Assembly (NCBI GenBank): GCA_002050235.1
Contig: MWST01000012.1
Location: forward strand, 1-64,000
Length of the DNA: 64,000 bases
Reading direction: 5' to 3'
Origin: Polyangiaceae bacterium UTPRO1
Lineage (GTDB): Bacteria; Desulfobacterota; Binatia; UTPRO1
Position 1 is the first letter of the stretch; every line of letters begins with the position of its first letter. Shown piece by piece: positions 1 to 28,999 of this stretch. The notes under the pieces are model-generated. The model was not told the DNA's origin and did not search any database. It worked only from the letters and a program-made list of their open reading frames with translations. The position numbers and the translations under genes were made by a program.

Positions 1-275
1 ACACCGATTGGCGGCTCCCGAACGTGAACGAGCTGCAGAGCCTCGCCGACTACCAGAACGTGGCCCCGGCGGTGAACCCTGCTTTCAATACGGGTTGTAC
101 GGGAGGCTGCACGGTGACGACGTGTAGTTGTACGCAGTCGTACCGCTACTGGTCGTCCACTACGTTCCAGGACAGTCCCGGCTACGCGTGGTTCGTGGGC
201 TTCTACGTCGGCGACGTGTACGCGACCAGCAAGAGCAACAACGGCTACGTTCGCGCCGTGCGCGGCGGCTCATGA
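1..275 (+). CDS. DGR target protein, C-terminal part (DUF1566/Lcl_C-type, C-type-lectin-like fold)
   Basis: This is the 3' end of a gene that begins before the window; the reading frame is open from base 3 and stops with TGA at 273-275. The visible part reads TDWRLPNVNELQSL, the hallmark of DUF1566/Lcl_C domains, then a short Cys-rich stretch, then YWSSTT and the ending YVRAVRGGS. These domains adopt C-type-lectin-like folds and usually bind ligands at the cell surface; several known DGR targets belong here. The last 47 or so codons coincide with the variable repeat, so the end of the domain is the diversified surface. Signal peptide and N-terminal domains lie outside the window. An internal ATG at 24 is not the true start because the motif begins upstream of it. 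Confidence 0.88.
   Translation, partial: TDWRLPNVNELQSLADYQNVAPAVNPAFNTGCTGGCTVTTCSCTQSYRYWSSTTFQDSPGYAWFVGFYVGDVYATSKSNNGYVRAVRGGS
132..274 (+). repeat. DGR variable repeat (VR)
   Basis: This 143-bp block aligns without gaps to 936-1078 (offset 804). I count 20 differences, all where the other copy has A: 10 A-to-G, 8 A-to-T and 2 A-to-C. The 99 non-A template positions are all identical. That is the signature of adenine-specific mutagenic retrohoming. The 3' block 246-274 is GC-rich and invariant and would serve as the initiation of mutagenic homology. Homology ends at the stop codon: TGA here, TGG in the template. Confidence 0.97.
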
Positions 276-318
276 TCGATCATTGGAGCATTTGAAGGTT
301 TGATCATTTGATTGGGGT

Positions 319-337
319 CTGGGGGCGGAGCCCCCAG
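319..337 (+). terminator. Perfect hairpin downstream of VR (cruciform-like or terminator)
   Basis: CTGGGGGC (319-326), loop GGA, then GCCCCCAG (330-337): a perfect 8-bp stem with a 3-nt loop, followed by GTTTT. It lies 44 bp after the end of the VR. DGRs such as the Bordetella phage BPP-1 element need a short DNA hairpin just downstream of the VR for efficient target recognition. The T-rich tail equally fits an intrinsic terminator for the target gene. Sequence alone cannot separate the two. Confidence 0.6.
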
Positions 338-357
338 TTTTCAGACGGGATCCAGCC

Positions 358-762
358 ATGGCGCACACCGAGCACCTGCCGATCTACAAGGCTGCGTACG
401 ACTTCTGCCTTTACGTCGAGCAACTCGTCCGGAAGTTTCCGCGCTACCACAAGTACGCCGCCGGCCAGGATCTCCGTGAGAGCGCCCGCGCGGTGCTGAA
501 GCTGATCGTGCGCGCCAACAGCCGGCGCGAGAAGCGCGCCGTGCTCTTCCAGATCCGCGAGGAGGTCGAGGCGCTCAAGGTCCTGCTGCGTCTCTGTCAC
601 GACGCGCAGGCATTTCCGAATTTCAATGCCTTCGAGCACGCCATCCGCCAGGTGACCGACGTAGCGCGACAGAACGAAGGGTGGCTGAAGAGTCAGCAAC
701 GGAGCCGTGGCCAGAGTCGGTCCGCGATTCTCGACGAGATAGCGGAGCCGAGCGTGCCATGA
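358..762 (+). CDS. avd: Avd-like DGR accessory protein (four-helix bundle)
   Basis: A 134-residue, basic, all-helical protein beginning MAHTEHLPIYKAAYDF, close in length to the BPP-1 Avd (about 128 residues). Avd forms a positively charged pentameric barrel that binds the reverse transcriptase and template RNA and is required for mutagenic retrohoming. The pattern of a Y-K-x2-Y-D-F helix, an R-E-S-A-R helix and a long R-E-E-V-E-A-L-K helix fits the S23-like four-helix-bundle family that contains Avd. It lies between the target gene and the TR, the BPP-1 order of target, avd, TR, RT. The ATG at 358 has no strong ribosome-binding site. Assignment rests on length, helical pattern and position. 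Confidence 0.85.
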   Translation: MAHTEHLPIYKAAYDFCLYVEQLVRKFPRYHKYAAGQDLRESARAVLKLIVRANSRREKRAVLFQIREEVEALKVLLRLCHDAQAFPNFNAFEHAIRQVTDVARQNEGWLKSQQRSRGQSRSAILDEIAEPSVP

Positions 763-935
763 TCATGAGGTCCCCCTCCTACCGGCGGCTTCGGCCTCGG
801 CTGCCCGCCGGTGAACGCCGGAGCCCCGTAGTGGGGCCGAGGCACAAGGGCGCCTTCCCCGGCCGCGGCCGGGCCAGACGCCCGGATCCGTGTGCCGCTG
901 CGTGCGGCGCCACACGGGAACAAGCGGAGGGGGCG
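763..935 (+). other. Structured non-coding spacer between avd and TR
   Basis: No gene is credible here. The spacer has several inverted repeats: GCCTCGG (794-800) pairs with CCGAGGC (837-843); GCCCC (823-827) pairs with GGGGC (833-837); 858-873 is a perfect 16-bp palindrome; and CCGTGTG (888-894) pairs with CACACGG (911-917) around an inner CCGC/GCGG stem. If the TR transcript starts upstream of here, these would form a folded 5' leader. High GC makes chance hairpins common, so the RNA role is inference. Confidence 0.45.
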
Positions 936-1078
936 ACGCAGTCGAACAACTACTGGTCGTCCACTACGTACCAGAACAATCCCGACAACGCGTGGAACGT
1001 GAACTTCAACGACGGCAACGTGAACGCGAACAACAAGAGCAACAACAACTACGTTCGCGCCGTGCGCGGCGGCTCATG
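936..1078 (+). repeat. DGR template repeat (TR)
   Basis: Adenine-rich master copy of the VR with 44 A residues, most inside AAC codons (14 of the 44 complete codons when read in the VR frame). AAC is the typical DGR template codon because randomising both adenines gives NNC, which can encode 15 amino acids and never a stop. All 20 VR differences fall on its adenines. It is non-coding in function; the RNA is copied by the RT just downstream into mutagenised cDNA. The boundaries are sharp: base 935 differs from 131, and 1079 (G) differs from 275 (A). Confidence 0.97.
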
Positions 1079-1093
1079 GTCCTGCGGAGCGGT

Positions 1094-1164
1094 CCGGCGC
1101 GTTCCTGCGCCGGGCCGCACGGCTTCGTATCCGCGGCGGCGGGAGGTCCGGGACTTCCCGCCGC
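1094..1164 (+). ncRNA. Hairpins between TR and RT start (putative spacer part of template RNA)
   Basis: Two strong stems lie in the 93-nt gap between TR and RT. CCGGCGC (1094-1100) pairs with GCGCCGG (1107-1113) over a 6-nt loop. GCGGCGGGA (1136-1144) pairs perfectly with TCCCGCCGC (1156-1164), and its loop can fold further through GTC/GAC. In BPP-1 a structured spacer 3' of the TR is essential for RT/Avd binding and cDNA priming; this gap has the same place. The second stem ends 7 nt before the RT start and could also limit RT translation. Confidence 0.5.
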
Positions 1165-1171
1165 TGCTCCG

Positions 1172-2749
1172 ATGATGACGCCCGACCTCTACTCGTTCGC
1201 GAACCTCTGGCGGCAGTATCGCATCTGCCGCCGCAACAAGCGGAACACCCTGAACCAGCTCCGCTTCGAGATCGATGCCGAGCGGAATCTCCTCGCGTTG
1301 CAGAGGGAGCTCCGCGCCCACACTTACCGACCGGGCCAGTCGATTTGCTTCGTCACGCGCGGACCGAAGCCGCGTGAGGTCTTCGCCGCCGACTTCCGCG
1401 ACCGCATCGTGCACCACCTCCTGGTCGCGGAGCAGGAGCGGGTCTTCGAGCCGCGCTTCATCCACGACTCCTACGCCTGTCGCGTCGGCAAGGGTACGCT
1501 CGCCGCGAGCAACCGGCTGATGGAGTTTCTGCGCGCGGGGACGGCGAACGGACGCCGGCCGCTCTTCGCCCTCCACCTCGACGTCGCCGGCTTCTTCCCG
1601 TCGATCGACAAGGAGGTACTCTGCGCGCTCCTCGCGAGGCGGCTCCGCCATCCCGAGGTCCGCTGGCTCACGTCGGTCGTGCTGTTCCATGACGCGACGA
1701 CCGACTATCGGTTCTGCTCGCGCGACGAACGCACCGCTCCCCCTGGCCGAGCCGGATATCCCGTGCCGGCGCGCAAGAGCCTCTTCGGCAACGACAACCG
1801 GCGCGGTCTCCCGATCGGCAACCTGACGAGCCAGTTCTGGGCCAACGTCTACCTGAACGAAGTAGATCAGTTCGCGAAGCGCGTCCTGCGCTGCCGCTGG
1901 TATCTGCGCTATGTCGACGACCTGATGCTGCTCTCGCCGGATCCGGACGAGCTGCGGCGGTGGCACGCGGCGATCGCGCGCTTCCTAGAAGACCGTCTGC
2001 GTCTTAGGCTGCGCGCGGAAGACCGCCAGCCGGTGCCGGTCGGCCAAGGTGTCGACTTCGTCGGCTGGAAGACCTGGTGGAGCCACCGGGTCCCGCGGCG
2101 GCGTACCCTCGCGAACCTCCGGGCGCGCGTCCGGTCCTTCGAGCGCCGCCACGTTGCCCGCGCCTTCATGGGTGGCGCCGCGCGGGTGCGCGTACCCCGC
2201 CCGTCGCCGGGCGTGCGACGGATGACCCTCGGAAGATCGCGGAACGACCTCGCGGATCTCACGGCCGCGCTCGGCTCCTATGGCGGGCACCTGCGGCACG
2301 GCGGCGCGTGGCGCGTCTGGGATGAGGTATGGAAAGGTCGTCCGTGGCTCGACGCGCTCTTCGCGCGCTGCTGCTGGCGGCCCGCGCCGCGCTGGACACA
2401 CTGGCATCCGCGGGCTGGCGAGAGCTTCCGCCGCGCCTACGCCCGACTGCTGCGTTCGGCGCCGCCGGCAGGGCTGGTGTTTCTGCAGGTCGGACGCTTC
2501 GTCGAGCTCTACGGGCCGCAGCGCCTCCGGGCCGAGCGCGTGCTCGGTCTCCGCGCCGCCGCCTTGCCGCGTGCCGGCTACGCCTTCACCGTCGGGTTCC
2601 CCGCCTGCGCCATGCCCCGCTTCGCCGCGCGTGCGCTCGCGGCGGGTCATGACATCGTACAGATACGGACGAATGAAGACGGTGCCTGCGTCGTGCTTCT
2701 GACTCCCGTGGACAGTCGCGTGGCGCCGGCGGCGCCAACAGCCTGGTGA
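1172..2749 (+). CDS. DGR reverse transcriptase with C-terminal MutS domain-I-like fusion
   Basis: A 525-residue protein, longer than typical DGR RTs (about 350-400). It copies TR RNA into cDNA with mutations at adenines. RT motifs: catalytic Asp137 in LDVAGFFPSID; the DGR-diagnostic GLPIGNLTSQ at 212-221, with SQ where most RTs have SP; YVDD at 247-250; then GVDFVGW and a thumb region with SYGGHLRHGG. Residues about 432-520 form an extra domain, LVFLQVGRFVELY then a G-F-P-A-C-A-M segment and a G-H-D-I-V-Q-I strand. This follows MutS domain I and keeps Phe443-x-Glu445, matching the mismatch-reading Phe-x-Glu of MutS. The start is ATG at 1172 or ATG at 1175. The frame is open upstream to 890, but that stretch crosses the TR and is not protein-like. 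Confidence 0.95.
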   Translation: MMTPDLYSFANLWRQYRICRRNKRNTLNQLRFEIDAERNLLALQRELRAHTYRPGQSICFVTRGPKPREVFAADFRDRIVHHLLVAEQERVFEPRFIHDSYACRVGKGTLAASNRLMEFLRAGTANGRRPLFALHLDVAGFFPSIDKEVLCALLARRLRHPEVRWLTSVVLFHDATTDYRFCSRDERTAPPGRAGYPVPARKSLFGNDNRRGLPIGNLTSQFWANVYLNEVDQFAKRVLRCRWYLRYVDDLMLLSPDPDELRRWHAAIARFLEDRLRLRLRAEDRQPVPVGQGVDFVGWKTWWSHRVPRRRTLANLRARVRSFERRHVARAFMGGAARVRVPRPSPGVRRMTLGRSRNDLADLTAALGSYGGHLRHGGAWRVWDEVWKGRPWLDALFARCCWRPAPRWTHWHPRAGESFRRAYARLLRSAPPAGLVFLQVGRFVELYGPQRLRAERVLGLRAAALPRAGYAFTVGFPACAMPRFAARALAAGHDIVQIRTNEDGACVVLLTPVDSRVAPAAPTAW

Positions 2750-2997
2750 ACCGCACCCTCGGCTACTGCGAAGAACATCGCGACCTTTTCGAGGCATTTG
2801 GGAGAACGCCGGCATACCCTACGTAGCTATCGCGACCCGTGAAGCGTACGCCGAGGGAAAACCCGTCGCGCGTGCGCGTATCGAGAAGGAGATGGGCCGG
2901 TCCTGCCGGTGGCAGCGATCGCCGCCGCCGGCGCCCGGCTAGCAGCGGCTGACAGTCGGCGTTGACGCGCTCGCCGCAGCCGCGGAAAGAGAGCGGC

Positions 2998-5580
2998 GTG
3001 CGCATCCTCTTCGACCCTGCCTTCGATGCGACGCCGTGGCCCGGTCCGCTGGCCGCCCGTTGCGCGGTCGCGGGCGAGGCGTGGGCCGGGCCGCGGTTTC
3101 TCTTGAATCTGCTCGAGGCGCAGCTCGGGCTCGGCGGGCCGCCGGTCTCGGCTGCGCGCCGCGCCGCGGCGTTGATACCGGCGCTCCGCGCCCGCGCCGG
3201 CTTCTGGAGCGCTTCGGCCGAGGTCGATCCGCTCGGGACGGCGCGCACGCTCCTGGCCTGGCGCGATGCTCTGTGGATGGCCGGGTGGCGCGGGGAGGCG
3301 CTGCGCGGCGGGCGGATCTCGGCGCTCGCCGAGGTCACGCGCGGCGCCCTCCCGGGCATTCCCGATCGCATTGCCGCCGTGGTCGAAGCGCTCGGGCGCC
3401 GCGGTGCCGACGTCGCCGAGCTCGTGCTGCTCGAGCCGACCGAAGACCTGCCGCCGCTCTGGCGGGCAGTCCTGACGGGACTCGCCGCGCGCGGAACACG
3501 CGTCGGGACGACGGTGCTCGCTCCTGCCGTCGCCGGCGGCGATCTGGCGCGTGCCCAGACTCTTGCCTTCCGTCCCGAGGGTGACGGCGCGCTCCAGCTC
3601 CTGCGTCCGCACGGGCCGCTCCAGGCCGCCGAGGAGGTCGCGGCCTGGCTCGCGGCGCGGTCCACTTTGGAGCGGACGGTGATCATCGCTCCCGATCCCG
3701 TCCTCGATGCGGCGCTTCGCCGCCATGGACTGCCGACGACCGGAAGTCCCAGCCAGGTTCAGGACAACGCGCTCATCCAGATCCTGCCGCTCGTGCTGGC
3801 GCTCGGCTGGACGCCCGCCGATCCCGAGCAGGCGCTCGGACTCCTGACGCTCGCGGAAGGACCGGTTCCGCGGCGGATCGCTTGGCGCCTCGCGCGGGCG
3901 TTGCACGCGGAGCCGGCGGTCGACAGCGATTGCTGGCGCGAGACGCTTCGCGATGGACTAGCGGAGCTCGCGTCGGCCGACGAGCGGGCGCGGGTCGAGA
4001 CCCGTCTGCGCGCGCTCCTCACGGCGCCGGTTCCCCGCGGCGGCGCTTATCCAGCTGCCGAGGTGCGCCGTCGGCTCGGCGTGCTCGAGACCTGGGTGCG
4101 CGGGCGGATGACGGATGCGCCGGTCGATAGCCTGCCGGCGTGGACGGCTTTGTTGCACGCGGTTGGCGCTCTGCGGCAGTTGGTCGAGGTCTCGGCGCTC
4201 GCGGAGCTGACGGCGCCGGAGCTCGAACGCTTCATCGCCGGTGCGCTCGAGGGCGACGCGCCGCTGCCGGCGTTTCCGGCCGAGGCCGGGCTCGCGGCGG
4301 TGCAGTCGCCGGCCGCGGTCGCCGGGCCCGCGGCCTGCGTCGTCTGGTGGGGTTTCGACCTCGACTCGGTGCCGCCGCTTCCGGTGCTGCCGCTCACCCG
4401 TGCCGAACGCCGCGCCTTCGCTGCGGCCGGCGTGGTGCTGCCCGACGCCGGCGACCTCGCCATCGCCGCGGCGACGCGGTGGCGCCGTCCCCTGCAGCAA
4501 GCGACCGAAGCCCTGCTCCTCGTCTGCCCGCGTACGACCGCCGACGGGGCGGAGCGCTATCCGCATCCTCTGTGGGACGAGCTCGAAGCCGAGCTCGCCC
4601 CCGGGGCCTCGCTCGCCGCGCTCGTGCGGACGACGCCGGTAGCGGCGCCGGCCGCGGAACGGCGCACCGCCCGACCGCTGCCGCAGCCGCGCCGCGATTG
4701 GACCGTCGCTCCCGGGGCGCTGCGAGAGCGGGCCGGAGAGTCGCCGTCCAGTCTGGCGCAGCTCGTCGGCTGCTCGTTCAAATGGGCGGTCGCGAAGCTC
4801 GGCGGCGTCGAGGCGGGAGAGACGGCGGCGCTGCCGGCGGCCGAACGGCTCCTCGGAACGCTCACGCACATCCTGCTGGCACGCTCGCTCCGCGCCGGCG
4901 TCGTCTCGCCCGATGCGGCCGAGACGCACGCCGCGGCGCTCTTCGATACCGAGGGCCCGCGCATCGCGGCGGCGCTCTTCCTCCCCGGCTTCGATGCGGT
5001 CCGCGCCGACGCCCGCACCGTCTTCGTGCGTGCCGCCCGCGAGCTGCACCGCGTGCTCGGCGTCTCGAAGCTTGCCGTGCGCGCGATCGAGACCGGCGTC
5101 GAGCGCGAGACCAGCGAGGGTCGGCTCAAGGGCTGGCCCGATCTCGTGGTCGGCCCGCCGACTGCGGTGATCGATCTCAAGTGGAGTGGGGCGGGTTACC
5201 ACCGCGAGCGCCTCGTCGCCGGCACCGCGTACCAGCTCGCTGTCTATGCCCGCCTCGTTGCCGGCGACGGCGCCGCGCCGCTACCGGCGGTCGGGTACTT
5301 CATAGTGAGCGATCAGCGGCTGCTCACCAGCGACCCGACGGTGCTCCGCGGGGGCGACCGGGTCGACGGTCCGTCGCTCGCCGCCACCTGGGACGCGCTG
5401 ATCGCGGCCTGGCGGCAGCGCCGGGCGGCGCTCGCGAGCGGCAGGCTGGAGGCCCCGATGCTAGACCTCGATGCGGCACCGCCGGCCGACGCGATCGTCG
5501 AGGGAGTGCTGGCGCTGCAGCCTGCCTGCGGCTACTGCGATCTGCAGACGCTCTGCGGGCGCGTTTTCGGAGCGGCGTGA
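2998..5580 (+). CDS. addB: AddB-like PD-(D/E)XK nuclease (double-strand break repair)
   Basis: An 860-residue protein that fits the second subunit of AddAB, the helicase-nuclease that processes double-strand ends for recombination. The C-terminal nuclease shows Asp715 (WPDLVV), then Asp726-Leu-Lys728. Cys592 with Cys844, Cys847 and Cys853 matches the C...Cx2Cx5C iron-sulphur staple of AddB-type nucleases. The N-terminal half looks like a degraded helicase without a Walker A motif, as in AddB. GTG at 2998 is chosen because GGAAAGAGAG ends six bases before it; TTG at 2962 is an alternative. The stop at 5578-5580 directly abuts the next ATG, so the two genes are probably one transcriptional unit. 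Confidence 0.85.
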   Translation: MRILFDPAFDATPWPGPLAARCAVAGEAWAGPRFLLNLLEAQLGLGGPPVSAARRAAALIPALRARAGFWSASAEVDPLGTARTLLAWRDALWMAGWRGEALRGGRISALAEVTRGALPGIPDRIAAVVEALGRRGADVAELVLLEPTEDLPPLWRAVLTGLAARGTRVGTTVLAPAVAGGDLARAQTLAFRPEGDGALQLLRPHGPLQAAEEVAAWLAARSTLERTVIIAPDPVLDAALRRHGLPTTGSPSQVQDNALIQILPLVLALGWTPADPEQALGLLTLAEGPVPRRIAWRLARALHAEPAVDSDCWRETLRDGLAELASADERARVETRLRALLTAPVPRGGAYPAAEVRRRLGVLETWVRGRMTDAPVDSLPAWTALLHAVGALRQLVEVSALAELTAPELERFIAGALEGDAPLPAFPAEAGLAAVQSPAAVAGPAACVVWWGFDLDSVPPLPVLPLTRAERRAFAAAGVVLPDAGDLAIAAATRWRRPLQQATEALLLVCPRTTADGAERYPHPLWDELEAELAPGASLAALVRTTPVAAPAAERRTARPLPQPRRDWTVAPGALRERAGESPSSLAQLVGCSFKWAVAKLGGVEAGETAALPAAERLLGTLTHILLARSLRAGVVSPDAAETHAAALFDTEGPRIAAALFLPGFDAVRADARTVFVRAARELHRVLGVSKLAVRAIETGVERETSEGRLKGWPDLVVGPPTAVIDLKWSGAGYHRERLVAGTAYQLAVYARLVAGDGAAPLPAVGYFIVSDQRLLTSDPTVLRGGDRVDGPSLAATWDALIAAWRQRRAALASGRLEAPMLDLDAAPPADAIVEGVLALQPACGYCDLQTLCGRVFGAA

Positions 5581-8500
5581 ATGGGCCGCATCGAGATCAT
5601 CTCGGCGAGCGCCGGCAGCGGCAAGACGCACCGGCTGACGGAGGTCCTGAACGAGGCCATCGCTGCCGGCAGCGCGCGGCCCGACGCCGTGCTCGCCACG
5701 ACGTTTACCAACCTGGCCGCCGCCGAGCTGCAGGAGCGGACCCGGACCCGGCTTCTGCGGGCGGGGCGGATCGTAGATGCGCACCGGCTCGCCGCGGCGC
5801 GCATCGGCACCGTGAACTCGGTCTGCGGCCGGCTAGTCGCCGAGTTCGCCTTCGAGCTCGGTCTGGCGCCGGACATCCGCGTGATCGACGAGCGGGCGGC
5901 GAGCGCGGCGCTTCGCCGGGCGATGTCGCGCGTCGTCACGGCCGAGGACAGTGAATGCCTGGCCGACATCAAGCAACGCTGCGACGAGACATTGGATTGG
6001 CAGGCCGACGTCAATGACATCGTTGCCCTGGCGCGCGCGAACGGTATCGGCGCCGACGCCCTCGAGCGCGCGTGCGCGCGCAGCATCGCCGGCCTCCTCG
6101 CGTTCTTCGCGCCGGCGGCGAGCGATGGCGGCGCGCTCGACGCCGCTCTCGTCGCGGCTCTCGAGGGATTCCTGGCCGCGGTCGATCGCGAGGTCGATAC
6201 GACCAAGAAGACGCAGCTCGTCGTCAGCGAGGCGGAGCGATGCCTCGGCCGCATGCGGCGCGGGTTGCGGCTTCGTTGGGCCGACTGGTACCGCCTCCAG
6301 AACCTCGATGTCGGGAAGAAGTCGGCGGCGGCCAAGATGCCTCTTACGGCTGCGGCGGCGGCCCATGACCGTCATCCCGGCCTCCAGGAGGATCTGCGCA
6401 CGGTATGCGAGCGGGTGTACGCGATCGCCGCCCGGACCTTGCGCGCCTACGAAGATTACAAGCGCGCGTGGGGGTTCATCGACTTCACCGATCAGGAGGT
6501 CCTGGCTCTGGCGCTCCTCGACCGCGCCGACGTTCGCGCCCGGCTCGCGGGCGAGATCGACCTCGTGCTGGTCGACGAGTTCCAGGACACGAGCCCGCTC
6601 GAGCTCGCCATCTTCCTGCGGCTTGCGGAGGTGGCGAAGCGCAGCGTCTGGGTCGGGGATCAGAAGCAGTCGATCTTCGGCTTCCGGGGGACGGATCCGG
6701 CGCTCATGGATGCAGCGGTCGATACGATTCTCGCCGGCGCCGAACCCGAGACGCTCCCGAAGTCGTGGCGGAGCCGCCCCGAGCTCGTAGCGCTTACTTC
6801 GGACGTGTTCGCGCGCGCCTTCGCTCACCACGGCGTGCCGGAGTCGCGAGTCCGGCTCGAAGCGGAGAGCGCGAGCGAAAGCCCGGAGCTCGGGCCGGTC
6901 GTCGAGCGCTGGCGCCTGCCGGCCAAGAACCGCTCCGAGGATGCGGCGTATCTCGCCGCCGCCGTGAGCGATCTCCTGGCGGACTCCGAGGTCATGGTCC
7001 GCGATCGTGAGCTCGCGGGTCCGCGGCCGCTTAGGCCGGGCGACGTCGCCGTTCTCTGTTACCAGAATACGACGTGCGCGAGCCTGGCGCGCGAGCTCGC
7101 GGCGCTCGGAGTCCGGGCCGTGCTGCCCCGTACCGGACTTATGAAGACGCCCGAGGCGCTGCTCGTGCTCGCCGGTCTCCGGCTCTTCGTCGACAACCAG
7201 GACACGCTGGCGCTGGCGGAGCTCGCGCGCCTCACTGCGTACCCGGCAGCGGGGGACGAATGGCTCGCCGACCTCATGGCGCGGCCGGCCCGCGAAGCGT
7301 TCGCCGCGATCGACGTCGCGGAGCGGCTGGCGGCGGCGCGGCGCGCCGAGCCGCACGCCGGAGCGCTCGCCGCCTTCGATGCGGTGCTCGAAGCCGTGGA
7401 CGCCCGCGAGCACTGCCTCGCGTGGGGCGATGCGGCGACGCGCCTCGCCAACCTCGACAGGCTTCGCGCCCACGCCGTTACGTACGCGGACCTCTGCACC
7501 TCCGACGGTCGCAGCTGCACGCCGGCAGGGCTCGTCGCCGCGTTCGCCGAGTTGGAGGCCTCGGATCGCGACGCCCGCGCCGCCGATGTCCAGGAGGACG
7601 CCGTGGTCGTGAGCACGTGGCACAGCGCCAAAGGCCTCGAGTGGCCGGTCACCGTGCTCTTCGACCTCGATCGTGACCCACGCTACACGGCGCTGGGCGT
7701 GCAGGTGGTGACGGATCGCGCGGAGTTCGACGCCACCGATCCGCTCGCCGAGCGGTGGGTGCGCTACTGGCCGCAACCCTACCATCCGGCACAGACCAAG
7801 GCGCGATTCCACGACCGGCTGCGCCAGGCGCCCGAGACCGATGCCGCCCGCCGTCGCGAGGAGCGGCAGGCGCTCCGGCTCCTCTATGTAGGCTGGACGC
7901 GCGCGCGCGACCGGATCGTCCTTGCCGGACGGCCCGGCTGCCTCGGATCGGGAATGGTCGGGCGGTTGCAGGATGTCGCCGGCCGGCCGCTCCTCACCGA
8001 GGCTCCGAGCCCGGCCGACGGTCCGGTCGCAGATCTGGTATGGGCGGGGCGGCCGGTGCGCGTGCGCGTCCGCGACGCCGTGCTGCACGATGCTGTGCCT
8101 CGCGATGCCGTCCCGGGTCGTGGCTACGTCGCGCCCGGGCGGCGTTCGCACCCGCCGGCGATCGTCGTTCCGTCGGAGATGGCGCCGTCCGAGCGCGCCG
8201 CGGAGGCGGCGACGGTCGAACGCTGCGGGGATCGACTTCGGCTCGGCGCCAATCCCGACATGCAGAGGGTCGGCGAAGCAGTGCACGGTTTCCTCGCCGC
8301 CGACCGCCCGACGTTCGCCGCTGCCGAGCGCCGCGACATCGCTGCCGGCCTCCTGCAGCGCTGGGACGTCGCCGGCGTGCTCCGCGTCGATGACCTCCTC
8401 CGGGCGAGCGAACGGCTGCGCACGTGGGTGGCGTCACGTTTTCCGGGTGCCGTCTGGCATCGCGAGTGGCCTCTCCAGCATCGCCAGCCGAACGGCACCA

Positions 8501-8730
8501 TCGTCCGCGGCACCGCCGACCTCGTGATCGAGCACGGGAGCGGCTTCGCCATCGTCGACCACAAGAGCTTTCCGGGGACGGTGGAGCAGGCGGTGCGCCG
8601 GGCAGCCGGCTACGCGGGGCAGCTCGCCGCCTACGCGGCCGCCGTTGCCGCGGCGCGAGAGCAACCCGTGACCGGTAGCTTCGTCCACCTGCCGGTACTG
8701 GGGCTGATCGTGGAGCTGCGTTCGCCGTGA
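5581..8730 (+). CDS. addA: AddA-like UvrD/REP helicase-nuclease
   Basis: A 1049-residue superfamily 1A helicase. Walker A is ASAGSGKT at 9-16, and the Walker B/motif II is DEFQDT at 332-337. Later motifs include VGDQKQSIFGFRG (motif III), SWRSRPELV (motif IV), STWHSAKGLEWPVT (motif V) and LLYVGWTRARD (motif VI). A C-terminal nuclease carries Asp980 (GTADLVI) and Asp993-His-Lys995 (VDHKSF), the AddA arrangement. With the preceding AddB-like protein it would unwind and resect DNA ends and load RecA. The start codon follows the upstream stop with no gap, implying translational coupling. Confidence 0.9.
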   Translation: MGRIEIISASAGSGKTHRLTEVLNEAIAAGSARPDAVLATTFTNLAAAELQERTRTRLLRAGRIVDAHRLAAARIGTVNSVCGRLVAEFAFELGLAPDIRVIDERAASAALRRAMSRVVTAEDSECLADIKQRCDETLDWQADVNDIVALARANGIGADALERACARSIAGLLAFFAPAASDGGALDAALVAALEGFLAAVDREVDTTKKTQLVVSEAERCLGRMRRGLRLRWADWYRLQNLDVGKKSAAAKMPLTAAAAAHDRHPGLQEDLRTVCERVYAIAARTLRAYEDYKRAWGFIDFTDQEVLALALLDRADVRARLAGEIDLVLVDEFQDTSPLELAIFLRLAEVAKRSVWVGDQKQSIFGFRGTDPALMDAAVDTILAGAEPETLPKSWRSRPELVALTSDVFARAFAHHGVPESRVRLEAESASESPELGPVVERWRLPAKNRSEDAAYLAAAVSDLLADSEVMVRDRELAGPRPLRPGDVAVLCYQNTTCASLARELAALGVRAVLPRTGLMKTPEALLVLAGLRLFVDNQDTLALAELARLTAYPAAGDEWLADLMARPAREAFAAIDVAERLAAARRAEPHAGALAAFDAVLEAVDAREHCLAWGDAATRLANLDRLRAHAVTYADLCTSDGRSCTPAGLVAAFAELEASDRDARAADVQEDAVVVSTWHSAKGLEWPVTVLFDLDRDPRYTALGVQVVTDRAEFDATDPLAERWVRYWPQPYHPAQTKARFHDRLRQAPETDAARRREERQALRLLYVGWTRARDRIVLAGRPGCLGSGMVGRLQDVAGRPLLTEAPSPADGPVADLVWAGRPVRVRVRDAVLHDAVPRDAVPGRGYVAPGRRSHPPAIVVPSEMAPSERAAEAATVERCGDRLRLGANPDMQRVGEAVHGFLAADRPTFAAAERRDIAAGLLQRWDVAGVLRVDDLLRASERLRTWVASRFPGAVWHREWPLQHRQPNGTIVRGTADLVIEHGSGFAIVDHKSFPGTVEQAVRRAAGYAGQLAAYAAAVAAAREQPVTGSFVHLPVLGLIVELRSP

Positions 8731-8740
8731 AGGGATCGAG

Positions 8741-9073
8741 CTAACGGCGGTAGCCGTGATATCCGTTACGTCCGTGGCCGCCGTGCCAGCCATGCCCGCC
8801 GCCGTGCCAGCGCCGCGCTCCCCAGCCGCCTACGTATACGCCGCCGTAGGACGGGCGGTAGCCGTAATAATAGGAAGGGGCGTAGTACGGCCGCGGATAG
8901 TACACGGGCGGTGGGGGCGGGTAGTAGAGCGGCGGGGCCGGCGCATAGATCGCCACGCCCGGTAGCGGAATCCCGATTGCGATGTCGACACCGGCCGATG
9001 CTCCGGAGACATCTACCGATAACGACATGGCGAGCGCGATTCCGACTATGGTCAGCAGGGTGATCTTCTTCAT
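8741..9073 (-). CDS. Small exported Pro/Tyr/Gly/His-rich protein
   Basis: 110 residues with a clear signal peptide (MKKITLLTIVGIALAMSLSV, predicted cleavage after ASA). The mature part has a short hydrophobic start, then PPPPPVYYPRPYY-type proline/tyrosine tracts and a tail rich in Gly, His and Trp. Such low-complexity exported proteins occur widely without assigned function. The ATG at 9073 is preceded by a good GAGGAGGG ribosome-binding site about ten bases upstream. The gene diverges from the DUF6600-like gene at 9264, with a 190-bp shared upstream region. Confidence 0.75.
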   Translation of the reverse strand: MKKITLLTIVGIALAMSLSVDVSGASAGVDIAIGIPLPGVAIYAPAPPLYYPPPPPVYYPRPYYAPSYYYGYRPSYGGVYVGGWGARRWHGGGHGWHGGHGRNGYHGYRR

Positions 9074-9263
9074 GGTGGTGAGACCCTCCTCGGGGCGCGA
9101 CCAACGCGAGAAGAGCGATCGAGTTGCGGCGTGCTCCCCGGATCTCGCACCTTGTATCCCGCGATCGACCGCTGTGTCATCGTCGACGTTCCCGGCGACC
9201 GCGTCCCTGCGGTGGTTGCTTTGTTGAAGGCCGCGCTTCGGTTCCCAAAGGAGGACTCTCACG

Positions 9264-11633
9264 ATGATTCGGCGACCTCGCCTCGGTCGTATCTTCTGCT
9301 CGTGTCTCATAGCCTCGGCGCTCTGGATCCCGAGCGCCCGCGCGCAGCAGGCGCGCGCCGTCGGCGTCACGCCCCCCCGGCTGTCGTTCGTGGACGGGGA
9401 CGTATCGTATTGGCGCCCCGGCGCTGACGATTGGGTCCGGGCGCAGATCAACACTGCCCTCGGCGCCGGCGACTCGCTCTATGCCGATAGCGGCGGCAAC
9501 TTCGAGCTCGAGATCGGCACTCGCGCCTATGTCCGCGGCGGCCCGGGGACGCAGCTCGGCATCGATTCGCTGGAGACCGGGTACCTGCAGCTCCGGGTGC
9601 CTGCCGGCTACGCGGCGGTGGATCTGCGCCGCATCCCGGAAGGTCAGGAGATCGAGCTCGATACGCCGAACGGCGCCTTCCTGATCTCGCTTCCCGGGTA
9701 CTACCGCTTCGACGTCGATGATCGGGCGACGCGCTTCACGGTACGGCGCGGCGGCAGCGCCCGCGTCTTTCCGGCCGGCGCCAACGACGGAGTGGAGGTC
9801 GGCAGCAGCCAGACCGTCGTCGTGAGCGGTACCGACACGGCCGATCTTCAACGTGTGGCACCGGCGGACGAGGACGCCTGGGATCGCTGGAACTACGACC
9901 GCACCGCGAGCCTCGGCGGCGAGCCGCTCAGTGCCCGCTACGTCTCTCCCGAGGTGGCCGGCGTCGACGATCTCGATCGCTACGGCGACTGGCGGTCCAC
10001 GTCGTCGTACGGCGCAGTGTGGGTGCCGCGGGGCACCCCGTCGGGCTGGTCGCCGTACACCACCGGTCGTTGGGTGTGGGACGGCTACTACGGCTGGACC
10101 TGGGTCGACGACGCGCCCTGGGGCTGGGCGCCTTACCACTATGGTCGATGGTGCTGGGTCGACGGCTACTGGGGCTGGGCTCCGGGTCCGCTGGTAGCGC
10201 GTCCGGTCTACGCGCCGGCGCTGGTCGCGTTCTTCGGTAGCGGCGGCGTGAGCGTGTCTATCGGTATAGGCACACCGTTCGTTAGCTGGGTGCCGCTCGG
10301 CTGGGGCGAGCCGGTCGTGCCCTGGTGGGGTCCGCGCGGCTTCGTCGGCCGCCCGTACTGGGGCGGCTGGGGCGGACCGCGGGTCGTGAACAACACGGTC
10401 ATCAAGAACACCACCATCATCAACGTGAACAACATCAACTACTACGACAATGTTCGTCATCGCGCGGTGATCGGCGTCGACGGGAATCGCTTCGGGCGCG
10501 GGCGTCTCGAGACCGTGCGCGTCGACGCCGATCGTATGCGCACCATGCGGCCGGTGCGCGGCGAGCTCGGGATCCGGCCGGTGCGCGAAAGCCTCGTCCC
10601 GCGCGAGAGCCGCGGCCAGCAACCGCCCGCCCGCATCCAGAGCCGTCAGGTGGTCGCGACACGGGCGCCGCAAGATCCGTCGCGATTGCCGCGAGCGCGC
10701 GGACTGATTCGTGAAACCGATGCAGCCCGCCGTCCCGAGTCGCGTATCGTGGTGCCGCGCGGGAGCGGAATGAACCGCCTCGAGCGCGCCGGCGGACGGA
10801 CCGCGCCGCCGCCGACGCGGGGTGGGGTCGAGCGGGTTCCTCGCGAACCTGGCAGAGGCAGTACTGCCGCACCCGAGCTGCGCCGCGAGGGGGAGCTAAA
10901 CGAGCGCGGCGGTATCGAGCGCGGCACCGGGCGCAGCGAGCGCCCCGCGAGGACGCAGCAGTCCGAGCCGCCGGAGCGCGCGCAGCCGCCGTCCCGTCCC
11001 GTAGCGCCCGATTCGCCACGCTCGCGCAGTGGGGCATCGGGCGAGGCAGCCCCGCCACCGCGAACCGGAGCGGAGCGTCCGGAGGCACCGCGGATACAGC
11101 GCCAGGAGAGGCCGCGGATGCAGCGCCCGGAGGCGCCGCAGATACAACGTCAGGAGGCGCCGCGCATGCAGCGCCCGGAGGCGCCGCAGATGCAACGTCA
11201 GGAGGCGCCGCGGATGCAGCGCCCGGAGGCACCGCGGATGCAACGCCAGGAGGCGCCGCGGATGCAGCGCCCGGAGGCACCGCAGATGCAACGTCAGGAG
11301 GCGCCGCGGATGCAGCGCCCGGAGGTGCCGCGGATGCAACGCCAGGAGGCTCCGCGGATGCAGCGCCAGGAGGCGCCGCAGATGCAACGTCAGGAGGCGC
11401 CGCGGATGCAGCGCCCGGAGGTGCCGCAGATGCAACGTCAGGAGGCGCCGCGGATGCAGCGCCCGGAAGCGCCGCGGATGCAACGTCAGGAGGCGCCGCG
11501 GACGCAGCGCCCGGAGGCGCCGCAGATGCAACGTCAGGAGGCGCCGCGGACGCAGCGCCGTGACAGTCCGCCGCGTGGCGACGGGAATCGCGGTAGTGAC
11601 GCGAGCGACCGCGGCCGACGTGATCGCGATTGA
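9264..11633 (+). CDS. DUF6600/FecR-like exported protein with octapeptide repeat tail
   Basis: 789 residues. A signal peptide (cleavage near SARAQ) precedes a FecR-like beta region at about 35-190, with RLSFVDGDVSYWRPG at its start. A Trp/Tyr-rich module at about 245-320 contains WVPRGTPSGWSPY, GRWVWDGYYGWTW and GWAPYHYGRW, typical of DUF6600. An N/V/I-rich strand patch follows at about 375-390, then a basic Pro/Arg/Glu-rich tail with 19 tandem octapeptides. The tail looks disordered. The ATG is preceded by AAAGGAGG about nine bases upstream. Exact role unknown; probably periplasmic or envelope-associated. The following small gene overlaps its stop. Confidence 0.8.
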   Translation: MIRRPRLGRIFCSCLIASALWIPSARAQQARAVGVTPPRLSFVDGDVSYWRPGADDWVRAQINTALGAGDSLYADSGGNFELEIGTRAYVRGGPGTQLGIDSLETGYLQLRVPAGYAAVDLRRIPEGQEIELDTPNGAFLISLPGYYRFDVDDRATRFTVRRGGSARVFPAGANDGVEVGSSQTVVVSGTDTADLQRVAPADEDAWDRWNYDRTASLGGEPLSARYVSPEVAGVDDLDRYGDWRSTSSYGAVWVPRGTPSGWSPYTTGRWVWDGYYGWTWVDDAPWGWAPYHYGRWCWVDGYWGWAPGPLVARPVYAPALVAFFGSGGVSVSIGIGTPFVSWVPLGWGEPVVPWWGPRGFVGRPYWGGWGGPRVVNNTVIKNTTIINVNNINYYDNVRHRAVIGVDGNRFGRGRLETVRVDADRMRTMRPVRGELGIRPVRESLVPRESRGQQPPARIQSRQVVATRAPQDPSRLPRARGLIRETDAARRPESRIVVPRGSGMNRLERAGGRTAPPPTRGGVERVPREPGRGSTAAPELRREGELNERGGIERGTGRSERPARTQQSEPPERAQPPSRPVAPDSPRSRSGASGEAAPPPRTGAERPEAPRIQRQERPRMQRPEAPQIQRQEAPRMQRPEAPQMQRQEAPRMQRPEAPRMQRQEAPRMQRPEAPQMQRQEAPRMQRPEVPRMQRQEAPRMQRQEAPQMQRQEAPRMQRPEVPQMQRQEAPRMQRPEAPRMQRQEAPRTQRPEAPQMQRQEAPRTQRRDSPPRGDGNRGSDASDRGRRDRD
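11091..11546 (+). repeat. 24-bp tandem repeat coding for 19 octapeptides
   Basis: Nineteen in-frame 24-bp units encode variants of RMQRPEAP and QMQRQEAP. Pro/Gln alternates at position 5, so many units pair into 48-bp blocks. A partial unit follows at 11547. Near-identity at DNA level (CAGCGCCCGGAGGCGCCG and CAACGTCAGGAGGCGCCG types) points to recent slippage or unequal recombination, so copy number probably varies between strains. It is not a CRISPR array: there are no unique spacers and the array is fully coding. Confidence 0.93.
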
Positions 11634-25675: not shown

Positions 25676-28600
25676 TCAGTCGGACTCGTCTTTGAACTGG
25701 TCGGCGCGATTGCGGAGCGCTGGCGCGCTGAAGGTCGCGTCCCAGCAGGCGCCCGTCGAGCTGCGCAGCTGTACCGTGAGCGGCTGCGCGAACGGTAGTG
25801 TCGGCATTGCCAGGCCGCCGCCGCGGCCCTTGAGAAGGATCTTCGCCTTTCCCGGTGTTGTGCCGCTCTTGAGGGCCAGGCGCGTGATCCCGCGGCTACC
25901 GGTCTTGTCGGCATACTGGAAGCCGGACCCGTTCTCTCTCCAGCATGCTCGCCCGCCGCAGGCGCCACCCGCCGGGAGCGGCAGGCTCATGCGGAGCGCG
26001 CCGCCGTCATAAAGGCAGAGCTGATAGCCGGTGTCGATTGTCGGGTTACCGAAGTCGGTCTGCGGCGTTGCCGCGCCTCGGTTCCACTTCCACTGCAGGC
26101 TGTCGTGCGCTGCTGCCGCAGCGTTGCGGAGGAAGATCGACGCTCGTGCCGGAGCCGCGGGCGCACGGCAGCCCGCCTCGGGCGCCGGGCCGCAGCCGGG
26201 CGTGTTCTCGATCTGGCAGCTCGCGGAGCAGCCGTCACCGCTCGCGATGTTGCCATCGTCGCACTGCTCACCGCAGCCGGACTGAGTGATGCCGTCGCCG
26301 CAGATGTCGGTGTTCCCCAGACACTGGCCGGCGATGCACGTATCGGGGTGCGTGCAGACGGCGCCGTCGTTGCACGGCGTGCCGTCCGGCTCGGTGGCAT
26401 CGGCAGGGCACGCCGGGCTGGCACCGGTGCAGAGCTCGGCGACATCGCACGGACCGGAGGCCGGGCGGCATTCGACGCCCGCGGCCGCGAAGGCGTCGGC
26501 AGGACAGGCGTCGGAGACGCCGTCGCAGGTCTCGGTTGCGTCGCAGGCGCCGGCGGCGGCACGGCAGACGGCGGTGCTCTTGGCGTCGGCCGGGCAGTAG
26601 GCGCTGACGCCGGTGCAGAGCTCGGCGATGTCGCAGACGCCGGCGGCGCTGCGGCAGACGATGTCCGCCGGGCGCAAGCTGTCGGGCGGGCAGGCGTTGC
26701 CGACGCCGTCGCAGCTCTCGGCGAGATCGCAGAACCCGGCCGCAGCGCGGCAGACGGCGGTGCTCTTGGCATCGCCCGGGCAGGCGGGCGAGGCGCCGTC
26801 GCAGCTCTCGGCGAGGTCGCAGACGCCGGCCGCAGCCCGGCACGTGGTGCCTGCTGCTGCGACGACGTCGGCCGGACAGCCGTCGTGCGTGCCGTCGCAG
26901 CTCTCGGCTACGTCGCAGGAACCGGCGCTAGGACGGCAGACGGCGCTGCTCTTGACGTCGGCCGGGCAAGCGGCCGCGACGCCGGTGCAGGCCTCGGCGA
27001 CATCGCAGACGCCGACGGCGTTGCGGCAGATGACCGCCGGGCCGGCAAACGCGTCGGCGGGACAGGAGTCGTCGACGCCGTTGCAGCTCTCGGCGACGTC
27101 GCAGACGCCGGCGCTCGGACGGCAGACGGCGGTGCTCTTGGCGTCGGCCGGACAGGTGCCGCTCGTGCCGGTGCAGGTCTCGGCGACGTCGCACACCCCC
27201 GCGGCCGGGCGGCAGACGACACTCGCCGGCCGCACTGCGTCGGCCGGGCAGGCGTCATCGATGCCGTTGCAGCTCTCGACGACGTCGCACGAGCCGGCGC
27301 TCGGACGGCAGACGGCGGTGCTCTTGACGTCGGCCGGGCACGCGGCGGAGCTGCCGGTGCAGGTCTCGGCGGTATCGCAGACGCCGGCCGACGGGCGGCA
27401 CACGGTCGCGCTCGAGGCAAAGGCGTTCGCGGGACAGGCCGCCGCTGCGCCGGTGCAGGTCTCGGCGACGTCGCAGACGCCGGCGGCGGGCCGGCAGACC
27501 GTGTTCGCCGGCACGAAGGTGCAGCTTCCGAGACAGCACGAGCCGGGAGTCCCGTTCGCAGCTCCGAGATCGCATTGCTCGCCCGGATCGAGGATGCCGT
27601 TGCCGCACGGTGCTCCGGACCAGAAGCCGCCGGGATAGAAGCTCGTCTCGTCGGTGGCGGCGCAGCTCGCGTTCACCAGCGGGTCGGTCGCCGCCGCGCA
27701 ACACGGATTCGCAGCGCTGCACTGGATTCCCGCGTAGGTGCCCTCGGCGAGCTTCGCCTGGCCGGCCGCTGCGGGATGGAAACAGTCGCAGCACGAGATA
27801 TCGCCGCTCGAGAACTTGTAATGGAATGGCGCTTCGACGTAGCGGAGCCCGACGTCCGCCGCCTTGACGGCGCCCGTGGCCGACGCTTCCCCCGCCGGGA
27901 GCGCGGCGTACTCGGCGGTCACCGCCTGGAGGATCGCGTTGTAGGCGACGGTCGTTTCGTACATGTCGATGCGGCGTGCGCTCGAGCAGTCGGCGGTGAG
28001 CGAGTGGCAGACGCCGCCGGCGCCGAAGACCGTCGTCAGGGACTGCCAGAAGAAGCTGCAGCTGGTGCCGAAGCCGAGGCCGCAGCTGGCCTTCGAGCTG
28101 AAGTTGCAGAGCTCCGAGATGCGTACCAGCGCCGAGACCAGGATGCGGGCCTGCGGTACCTGGATCAGCTGGTCGAGGCCGCCGCGAAGCTCACGCTCGA
28201 AGGCCGCGGTGGTGGTGCGGCAATAGTTGTTCGGGTCTTGGTCCCCGCCGCAACCGCTGCCGGTCTTGTTCTCGGTGTTGGTACAGGCGTCGTTGTGGCC
28301 CATGAGGACGGTCACGTAGCGCGGGCCGGGTTGCGCGAGCAGGTTGACGCGCGCCGCCGTCGCCTGTGCTCGGAAGTCGCCGCGCATGGTGGCGCCGCTT
28401 TCGCCGTCGTTCAGGTTCACGATCTGGCCCGGCTTCGCGCACTCGAGGCGCTCGGCGTGGCTGAACGTCGCGTCGCCGCCCGAGGAGCAGTAGCTCGTGC
28501 CGTGGTCGTCGCCGGTCGCCCAGTTGCGAGGGACCTGGTCGCCGTAGGTGCAGCTATCGGCGTTGAAGCCGCGCGTGATGCTGTCGCCGGTAGCGTCGAT

Positions 28601-28999
28601 GGTGTCGGCGAGGAGGCCGTCGGTGAAGGTGGTTTGGGCGGCGAGCCCCGACGAGCGCCCGGTGGCCGTCAGGAGGAAGCCGGCGTGGAAGTGGCGCCAC
28701 CCGACGACGAAAGTGTCGTCGAGCACGTCACCGTCGCCGTCGGCGACGGTGATGAAAACGACGTCGTCGCCGTCGCCCGGCGATCGCTGCAGCAGGATCT
28801 CGACCGTTTCGCGGGGCTCCCAGCCCGATCCGAAAATCACGACCGTGTCGCCGGGAGCGTAGTCGTCCTTGTCGGTCTCGATGACGGCGGCGTGGGCGTA
28901 CTTGGCCGCCGGTGCGACCAGCGGCAGCAACAGCGCCAGAAGCCGTATGCAGGGGCGCAGCCAGGTTCGACGCGGCGTCGGGCGGGTCGTCGGATCCAT
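25676..28999 (-). CDS. Secreted GDSL/SGNH-type hydrolase with 12 disintegrin-like repeats
   Basis: 1107 residues. Signal peptide (about 1-37) and a beta-sandwich segment (about 39-130) come first. An SGNH hydrolase domain follows: Ser140 in ATGDSITRG, Asn235 in MGHND, and Asp404/His407 in CDCFHP, the four expected catalytic positions. Residues 500-873 are 12 Cys-rich repeats of the type CRPSAGVCDVAETC, matching the disintegrin pattern. A Myxococcus-type Cys-rich repeat (CGDGITQSGCGEQCDDGN) and a C-terminal beta domain complete it. It likely acts outside the cell on esters or glycans, with the repeats as a disulphide-rich stalk or adhesive region. Substrate unknown. Confidence 0.85.
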   Translation of the reverse strand: MDPTTRPTPRRTWLRPCIRLLALLLPLVAPAAKYAHAAVIETDKDDYAPGDTVVIFGSGWEPRETVEILLQRSPGDGDDVVFITVADGDGDVLDDTFVVGWRHFHAGFLLTATGRSSGLAAQTTFTDGLLADTIDATGDSITRGFNADSCTYGDQVPRNWATGDDHGTSYCSSGGDATFSHAERLECAKPGQIVNLNDGESGATMRGDFRAQATAARVNLLAQPGPRYVTVLMGHNDACTNTENKTGSGCGGDQDPNNYCRTTTAAFERELRGGLDQLIQVPQARILVSALVRISELCNFSSKASCGLGFGTSCSFFWQSLTTVFGAGGVCHSLTADCSSARRIDMYETTVAYNAILQAVTAEYAALPAGEASATGAVKAADVGLRYVEAPFHYKFSSGDISCCDCFHPAAAGQAKLAEGTYAGIQCSAANPCCAAATDPLVNASCAATDETSFYPGGFWSGAPCGNGILDPGEQCDLGAANGTPGSCCLGSCTFVPANTVCRPAAGVCDVAETCTGAAAACPANAFASSATVCRPSAGVCDTAETCTGSSAACPADVKSTAVCRPSAGSCDVVESCNGIDDACPADAVRPASVVCRPAAGVCDVAETCTGTSGTCPADAKSTAVCRPSAGVCDVAESCNGVDDSCPADAFAGPAVICRNAVGVCDVAEACTGVAAACPADVKSSAVCRPSAGSCDVAESCDGTHDGCPADVVAAAGTTCRAAAGVCDLAESCDGASPACPGDAKSTAVCRAAAGFCDLAESCDGVGNACPPDSLRPADIVCRSAAGVCDIAELCTGVSAYCPADAKSTAVCRAAAGACDATETCDGVSDACPADAFAAAGVECRPASGPCDVAELCTGASPACPADATEPDGTPCNDGAVCTHPDTCIAGQCLGNTDICGDGITQSGCGEQCDDGNIASGDGCSASCQIENTPGCGPAPEAGCRAPAAPARASIFLRNAAAAAHDSLQWKWNRGAATPQTDFGNPTIDTGYQLCLYDGGALRMSLPLPAGGACGGRACWRENGSGFQYADKTGSRGITRLALKSGTTPGKAKILLKGRGGGLAMPTLPFAQPLTVQLRSSTGACWDATFSAPALRNRADQFKDESD
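26381..27502 (-). repeat. Twelve disintegrin-like coding repeats
   Basis: Units of 30 or 32 residues, each with six regularly spaced cysteines (C-R...C-D...E-x-C...C-P-x-D). Lengths alternate 32 and 30 for the first eleven units, then a final 32. The alternation indicates that a two-unit block (about 186 bp) was duplicated repeatedly. The disintegrin consensus CDxxExCxGxxxxCPxD is kept in nearly all. Confidence 0.9.

Follow-up and report, generated by a model that had tools for sequence, protein, structure and literature searches.

The window, by which we mean the whole 64,000-nucleotide stretch of contig MWST01000012.1 from Polyangiaceae bacterium UTPRO1 analysed here, opens with a diversity-generating retroelement (DGR) whose reverse transcriptase (RT) ends in a domain resembling domain I of the mismatch repair protein MutS. 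The first gene (3..275, +) is the local target, which belongs to the Lcl_C family (Pfam, 8e-20), formerly DUF1566. Only its last 90 codons are seen because base 1 of the window is also base 1 of the contig (C24), and the remainder lies past the contig end; contig C8 ends in a target N-terminus that is possibly part of the same gene. The variable repeat (VR; 132..274, +) sits at the 3' end of this gene with its C-type-lectin-like domain. It is followed by an intact avd gene encoding 134 aa (358..762, +), the template repeat (TR; 936..1078, +) and the RT gene (1172..2749, +; start at 1172 or 1175), which encodes 525 aa comprising a DGR RT and the C-terminal domain. Avd scored above the cut-off of the Pfam family bAvd (1e-15), whereas the NCBIfam model DivGenRetAVD gave 62.5 bits, under its cut-off of 80. 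The RT was recognized by RVT_1 (8e-9), carries the motifs IGNLTSQ and YVDD, and is nearest to DGR RTs by profile (2.5e-55 for the BPP-1 RT versus 1e-15 for a group II RT); the SQ motif is as given for DGR RTs in PMC3521204.

VR and TR align over 143 bp with 20 mismatches, and every one of them falls on a TR adenine (20/44 adenines versus 0/99 non-A sites; hypergeometric p 1.4e-12) and, in the reading frame of the target, on a first or second codon position. An earlier sequence-only reading had proposed a complete DGR in BPP-1-like order with past adenine mutagenesis. Its alignment was reproduced base for base, its gene order agrees with the Pfam assignments of target, Avd and RT, apart from the truncation of the target by the contig end, and the adenine-only differences support the mutagenesis. 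The element is a genuine DGR. Three Lcl_C targets on another contig of this genome, C1, are full-length and have an apparent N-terminal signal sequence (judged by eye), and the Lcl_C targets are probably binding proteins that the cell secretes or displays. DUF1566 has a C-type lectin (CLec) fold according to PMC6642488.

About 100 residues of the RT extend beyond the region shared with the BPP-1 RT, whose match stops at model residue 399, and by profile, predicted fold and motif this extension is a MutS domain I (2408..2707, +; approximately residues 413-512 of 525). The family profile matched Thermus MutS at 7.8e-16 and also MSH6, and the predicted structure of the domain folded alone resembles MutS with Z up to 13.5. 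A search with the whole RT model showed no MutS among the 50 matches listed, because the RT part fills the list. The codons of Phe443-Val-Glu445 (2498..2506, +) encode the putative mismatch-reading motif, Phe-x-Glu, which aligns with Phe36 and Glu38 of E. coli MutS. Among the 120 best homologs, [FY] is present in 119 and Glu in 118, and in the window's own group the loop residues rank with the best-conserved positions of the domain. With the Pfam model MutS_I (PF01624), the domain alone scored 22.6 bits and 21.7 bits in the genome search, above the cut-off of 20.6, but the whole RT scored 18.2 bits, below it. None of the other MutS domains (II-V, ATPase) was found in the RT at Pfam E up to 1, where only RVT_1, MutS_I and an insignificant LCM match (0.057) appeared; a separate MutS of 930 aa is encoded in the same genome. 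The fusion is also visible in precomputed Pfam labels (52/120 homolog rows) and in one JGI name.

Of 572 DGR loci the best 80, all from named genomes, were surveyed for the fusion. The domain was detected by profile in 28 loci, and three more (L013, L043 and L077) carry it in a broken frame. The domain-bearing records have twelve phylum labels and are nearly all metagenome bins. A quick tree built from 83 RT cores places every domain-bearing RT inside one 54-row branch (SH-aLRT 95), and the presence of the domain needs four changes on this tree when labels are corrected and degenerate rows excluded. The aromatic-x-Glu motif is retained in 19 of the 28 loci, and Glu in 22. A match to the RT occurred in 94 phage records, in none of them covering 80% of the protein, and all of the 15 rows listed end at residue 383 or earlier; likewise, none of four viral contigs matched past residue 328. 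Among 117 Omnitrophota genomes drawn, eight had a DGR-like RT match (E 1e-30), none of which reached the MutS domain (ends at 170-359 of 515), and this sample added no new independent contrast. Two kinds of variant were seen in passing. The fused RTs at L077 (~8986-10300), L043 (~8843-10360) and L013 (~2196-3668) are spread over two frames, as assembly errors or decaying genes. The long DGR RTs of L067 (2401-4041; Aeromonas media CECT 4232), L046, L051 and L055 have a degenerate MutS-like domain, which makes them natural controls for a lost mismatch loop, in a named strain in the case of L067.

The earlier suggestion that further VR copies be sought was productive: three were found on contig C1 (C1a, C1b and C1c) and others on C43 (C43a), C12 and C29. 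The three on C1 lie in tandem units of ~1.56 kb, two of them with a truncated avd copy after them, and on C43 the VR paralog is succeeded by another Lcl_C gene that has diverged further. Differences from the TR (non-A/A) were 1/21 in C1a, 5/17 in C1b, 18/23 in C1c, 4/18 in C43a, 11/12 in C12 and 24/22 in C29. We compared non-A sites of each VR with the 131 bp preceding it, which are expected to diverge equally if the genes have only drifted. In C1a, C1b and C43a, which sit on two other contigs, 10/297 non-A VR sites differed from the TR, while the flanks differed from the local target at 69/393 sites (p 1e-9). Selection on the fold may contribute to the low divergence of the VR, but third codon positions gave the same picture (5/138 versus 26/132, p 3e-5). 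The VRs of C1c, C12 and C29 have diverged as much as their flanks (53/297 versus 72/393, p 0.92). The division into homed and not-homed copies was made after the VRs had been viewed, and this post hoc step counts against the argument; taken unsplit, the six remote copies gave 63/594 versus 141/786 (p 1.3e-4), and 36/276 versus 60/264 at third positions (p 0.003). Because the non-A VR sites are closer to the TR than the flanks are to the local target, the simplest reading of these sequences is that one TR homes into at least four genes, the local target and at least three remote paralogs, and that three older copies were left behind. The C1 region (L009, 4585-8850), with three tandem targets and two truncated avd copies between them, would fit a duplication of target-avd units after which only one avd survived.

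Of six Binatia relatives whose RT is nearly full-length, five have an adenine-biased TR/VR pair 5' of the RT, their TRs being homologous to that of the window, and a scan found no pair in the sixth (L108). Three of the five pairs differ at adenines only, and the other two have four and six non-A changes beside 20 A changes each. Across the window TR and those of the five relatives, 26 of the 44 window-TR adenines are invariant. The genome of one Binatia relative, G049, has 23 matches to the Lcl_C target, a large target-like family, together with one fused DGR RT match.

We then compared the presence of the domain with that of host repair genes, using MutS_II (PF05188) as the marker of MutS1 and PF01119 as that of MutL. 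The survey comprised 75 genomes with one row per genome; the genomes of L013, L062 and L110 (G049) were set aside, and L077 and L043 were counted as domain-bearing. Hosts of domain-bearing RTs have MutS1 in 31/32 and MutL in 30/32 cases, and hosts of domain-less RTs in 16/43 and 14/43, respectively (Fisher p 3e-8 and 5e-8, with relatedness ignored). Domain-less RT hosts with MutS1 amount to 3/16 inside the 54-row branch and 13/27 outside it.

Our preferred interpretation of these observations, to which we assign a probability of roughly 0.4, is that this chromosomal DGR, with one TR and an intact Avd, uses an RT fused to a MutS domain I that would bind the mispairs the element makes and hide them from host repair. 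In BPP-1, as described in part in PMC3240598, reverse transcription of the TR RNA introduces errors at adenines, and the resulting cDNA takes the place of the VR next to the initiation of mutagenic homing (IMH) element and a hairpin. For the window DGR, the TR RNA would similarly be copied with adenine errors, and the cDNA would replace the VR of the local target and those of no fewer than three remote paralogs. Pairing of the mutated cDNA with an old VR would give ~20 clustered mismatches per 143 bp, a presumable substrate for MutS, and host MutS and MutL would revert them. Domain I borne by the RT, near the cDNA, would instead sit on the mispairs and exclude MutS; as a mismatch wedge lacking the remaining MutS domains, it could occupy a mispair without triggering repair. 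Such shielding would account for the conservation of the loop, for the association with repair-proficient hosts and for the lack of the fusion in the phage collections searched, the last because phages may outrun repair. More doubtfully, a large cellular branch of DGRs may have captured a MutS mismatch reader as a built-in repair blinder, and dropped the domain where the host has no MutS/MutL. If the shielding is real, dozens of clustered mispairs could persist at chosen chromosomal genes while other loci stay repaired.

Several observations weigh against the shielding interpretation. We know of no report that an isolated MutS domain I binds mismatches, aromatic-x-Glu is missing from 9 of the 28 domain-bearing loci, and the score of the whole RT stays under the MutS_I cut-off. 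The association with repair genes depends on few independent events: two domain/repair contrasts lie on starred (well-supported) branches and four on the best tree, and MutS1 agrees on average in 1.4 and disagrees in 0.0 of two contrasts, which is not significant. Short-type DGRs also occur in repair-bearing hosts (MutS1 in 13/27 outside the branch), both MutS1 and MutL are present in the hosts of the four RTs with a degenerate domain (labelled Pseudomonadota, including Aeromonas media), and among domain-bearing RTs the host of L026 has no detected MutS1 or MutL and that of L078 no detected MutL. Moreover, the surveyed bins are incomplete, and the genome is smaller than 2 Mb in 22/27 hosts with neither the domain nor MutS1, so that general genome reduction explains the association equally well. 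We therefore regard the domain-repair association as a lead and no proof. In a DGR rebuilt in E. coli, deletion of mutS had no effect on the transfer of an 18-nt insertion (PMC12875486). The sections of PMC12875486 we could access state an expectation that substitutions would be better preserved, and contain no wild-type comparison.

Other roles of the domain were also considered. The domain might grip the mispaired primer-template behind the active site and let the RT extend past its adenine errors, host repair being irrelevant. It is on the same chain, after a complete DGR RT fold, and loci with the domain show a larger fraction of altered TR adenines (per-locus median 0.433 in 20 domain-bearing loci versus 0.357 in 29 loci, p 0.004). 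This test used the loci with TR/VR pairs in three RT groups (20/25, 8/9 and 29/46, the others dropping out) and counted L027, L029, L032, L052 and L053 as degenerate, which a later profile found to be domain-bearing. The difference has two to four starred independent contrasts and is not significant on them; with so few, we dropped it as proof of a polymerase role. The mutation spectrum is the same for domain-bearing (C 0.16/G 0.47/T 0.37) and short RTs (0.18/0.44/0.38; p 0.42), and help with extension leaves unexplained why the domain tracks host MutS/MutL. We consider this role unlikely, although not negligible.

It seems similarly improbable that the domain has lost mismatch reading and become a repurposed contact of the DGR particle, for example with the TR RNA, the spacer hairpins or Avd. 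The loci lacking aromatic-x-Glu indicate that not every element requires the motif, a strong predicted RNA hairpin adjoins the RT start in the window, and the TR precedes the RT and shares its strand in 28/28 long-RT loci with a found TR versus 15/29 short ones. However, high conservation of the mismatch-loop residues in the window's group is not expected of a mere dock, and the spacer hairpin is not common to relatives. A very unlikely role is the opposite of shielding, in which the domain marks the heteroduplex and recruits host MutS/MutL so that repair favours the cDNA strand. This would likewise predict co-occurrence with MutS1 and MutL, but dimerization, ATPase activity and MutL contacts of MutS are carried by domains other than domain I, and Pfam sees domain I alone in the RT.

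Several sequence elements accompany the repeats. TR and VR have a common GC-rich 3' end. A 12-bp palindrome that spans the stop codon where the VR ends (272..283) is a candidate target-site element; it is exact at C43a, differs by one base at C1a, C1b and C1c, and is absent from C12 and C29. An 8-bp inverted repeat with a 3-nt loop followed by TTTT (319..337), 44 nt 3' of the local VR, is a candidate DGR target hairpin or transcription terminator. The entire 83-nt stretch around it is unremarkable by itself (z -0.9), and no such repeat was seen within 90 bases after the remote copies. The TR-RT spacer (1079..1171, +) has two strong predicted RNA hairpins (-70.3 kcal/mol, z -5.3 for 1079-1180), which are a possible counterpart of the BPP-1 spacer. 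We rejected the idea that the spacer hairpin is an RNA element conserved among DGRs because that of a same-genus relative is different and weaker (z -1.6) and the spacers are not alignable.

The host genome amounts to 3.8 Mb in 45 contigs and is 89% complete. For the neighbourhood we took 32 open reading frames of at least 150 aa (2962-63803), chosen by length and GC content at third codon positions (GC3). A Pfam family was assigned at E 1e-5 to 26 of them, of metabolic, envelope and recombination types, and no phage family was found among the 32 (Pfam, E up to 1e-5; PHROGs was not run), the upstream side lying beyond the contig. The chromosomal setting assumed in the sequence-only reading thus holds within what this search covers. 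An AddAB/RecBCD-like pair, a PDDEXK nuclease and a UvrD helicase-nuclease, lies immediately 3' of the RT (2962-8730); it was rejected as a DGR partner, since none of 21 related loci matches in the available flanks, some of which are short. Farther away, a GDSL lipase-like protein (25679-28999, -) matches Pfam Disintegrin at 3.4e-56, which is unusual in a bacterium.

How clustered DGR mutations escape chromosomal mismatch repair is, to our knowledge, an open question. An error-making polymerase joined to the error-reading part of MutS, with a strongly constrained loop, offers a testable handle on it; the fusion also marks a widespread DGR subtype and might supply a module for targeting mutations in cells that have mismatch repair. 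The DGR itself and its multiple targets are of known kinds, while the RT-MutS domain I fusion is apparently undescribed as far as we searched. We found no description in the open-licence literature, but key DGR papers are outside that reach and the fusion may be in print. It is unmentioned in the accessible part of the large DGR survey PMC8144416, and the word MutS is absent from the main text of each of PMC8934634, PMC6642488 and PMC3521204.

The systems known to come nearest to the window DGR compare as follows. The DGR of the Bordetella phage BPP-1 has the order mtd-avd-TR-brt; unlike it, the window DGR is chromosomal, has several Lcl_C targets, and its RT is extended into MutS domain I. 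MutS and MSH6 domain I (PF01624) share with the RT extension the same predicted fold and the Phe-x-Glu loop, which reads Gly-Asp-Phe-Tyr-Glu in MutS and Gly-Arg-Phe-Val-Glu in the window RT, where a conserved Gly-Pro-Gln-Arg follows; unlike in MutS and MSH6, no further MutS domain was found and the domain is joined to a reverse transcriptase. Several or remote targets are known for DGRs of cyanobacteria (PMC7517822) and Stenotrophomonas SKA14 (PMC6642488). The window DGR has in common with them paralogous VRs at gene 3' ends and, with SKA14, Lcl_C/DUF1566 targets, but differs in that the C1 targets lie in tandem units, two with a truncated avd, that one TR was found, and that the RT is fused. 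The Cas6-RT-Cas1 protein (PDB 7kft) likewise combines an RT with a DNA-processing domain, although both the RT class and the domain differ from those described here.

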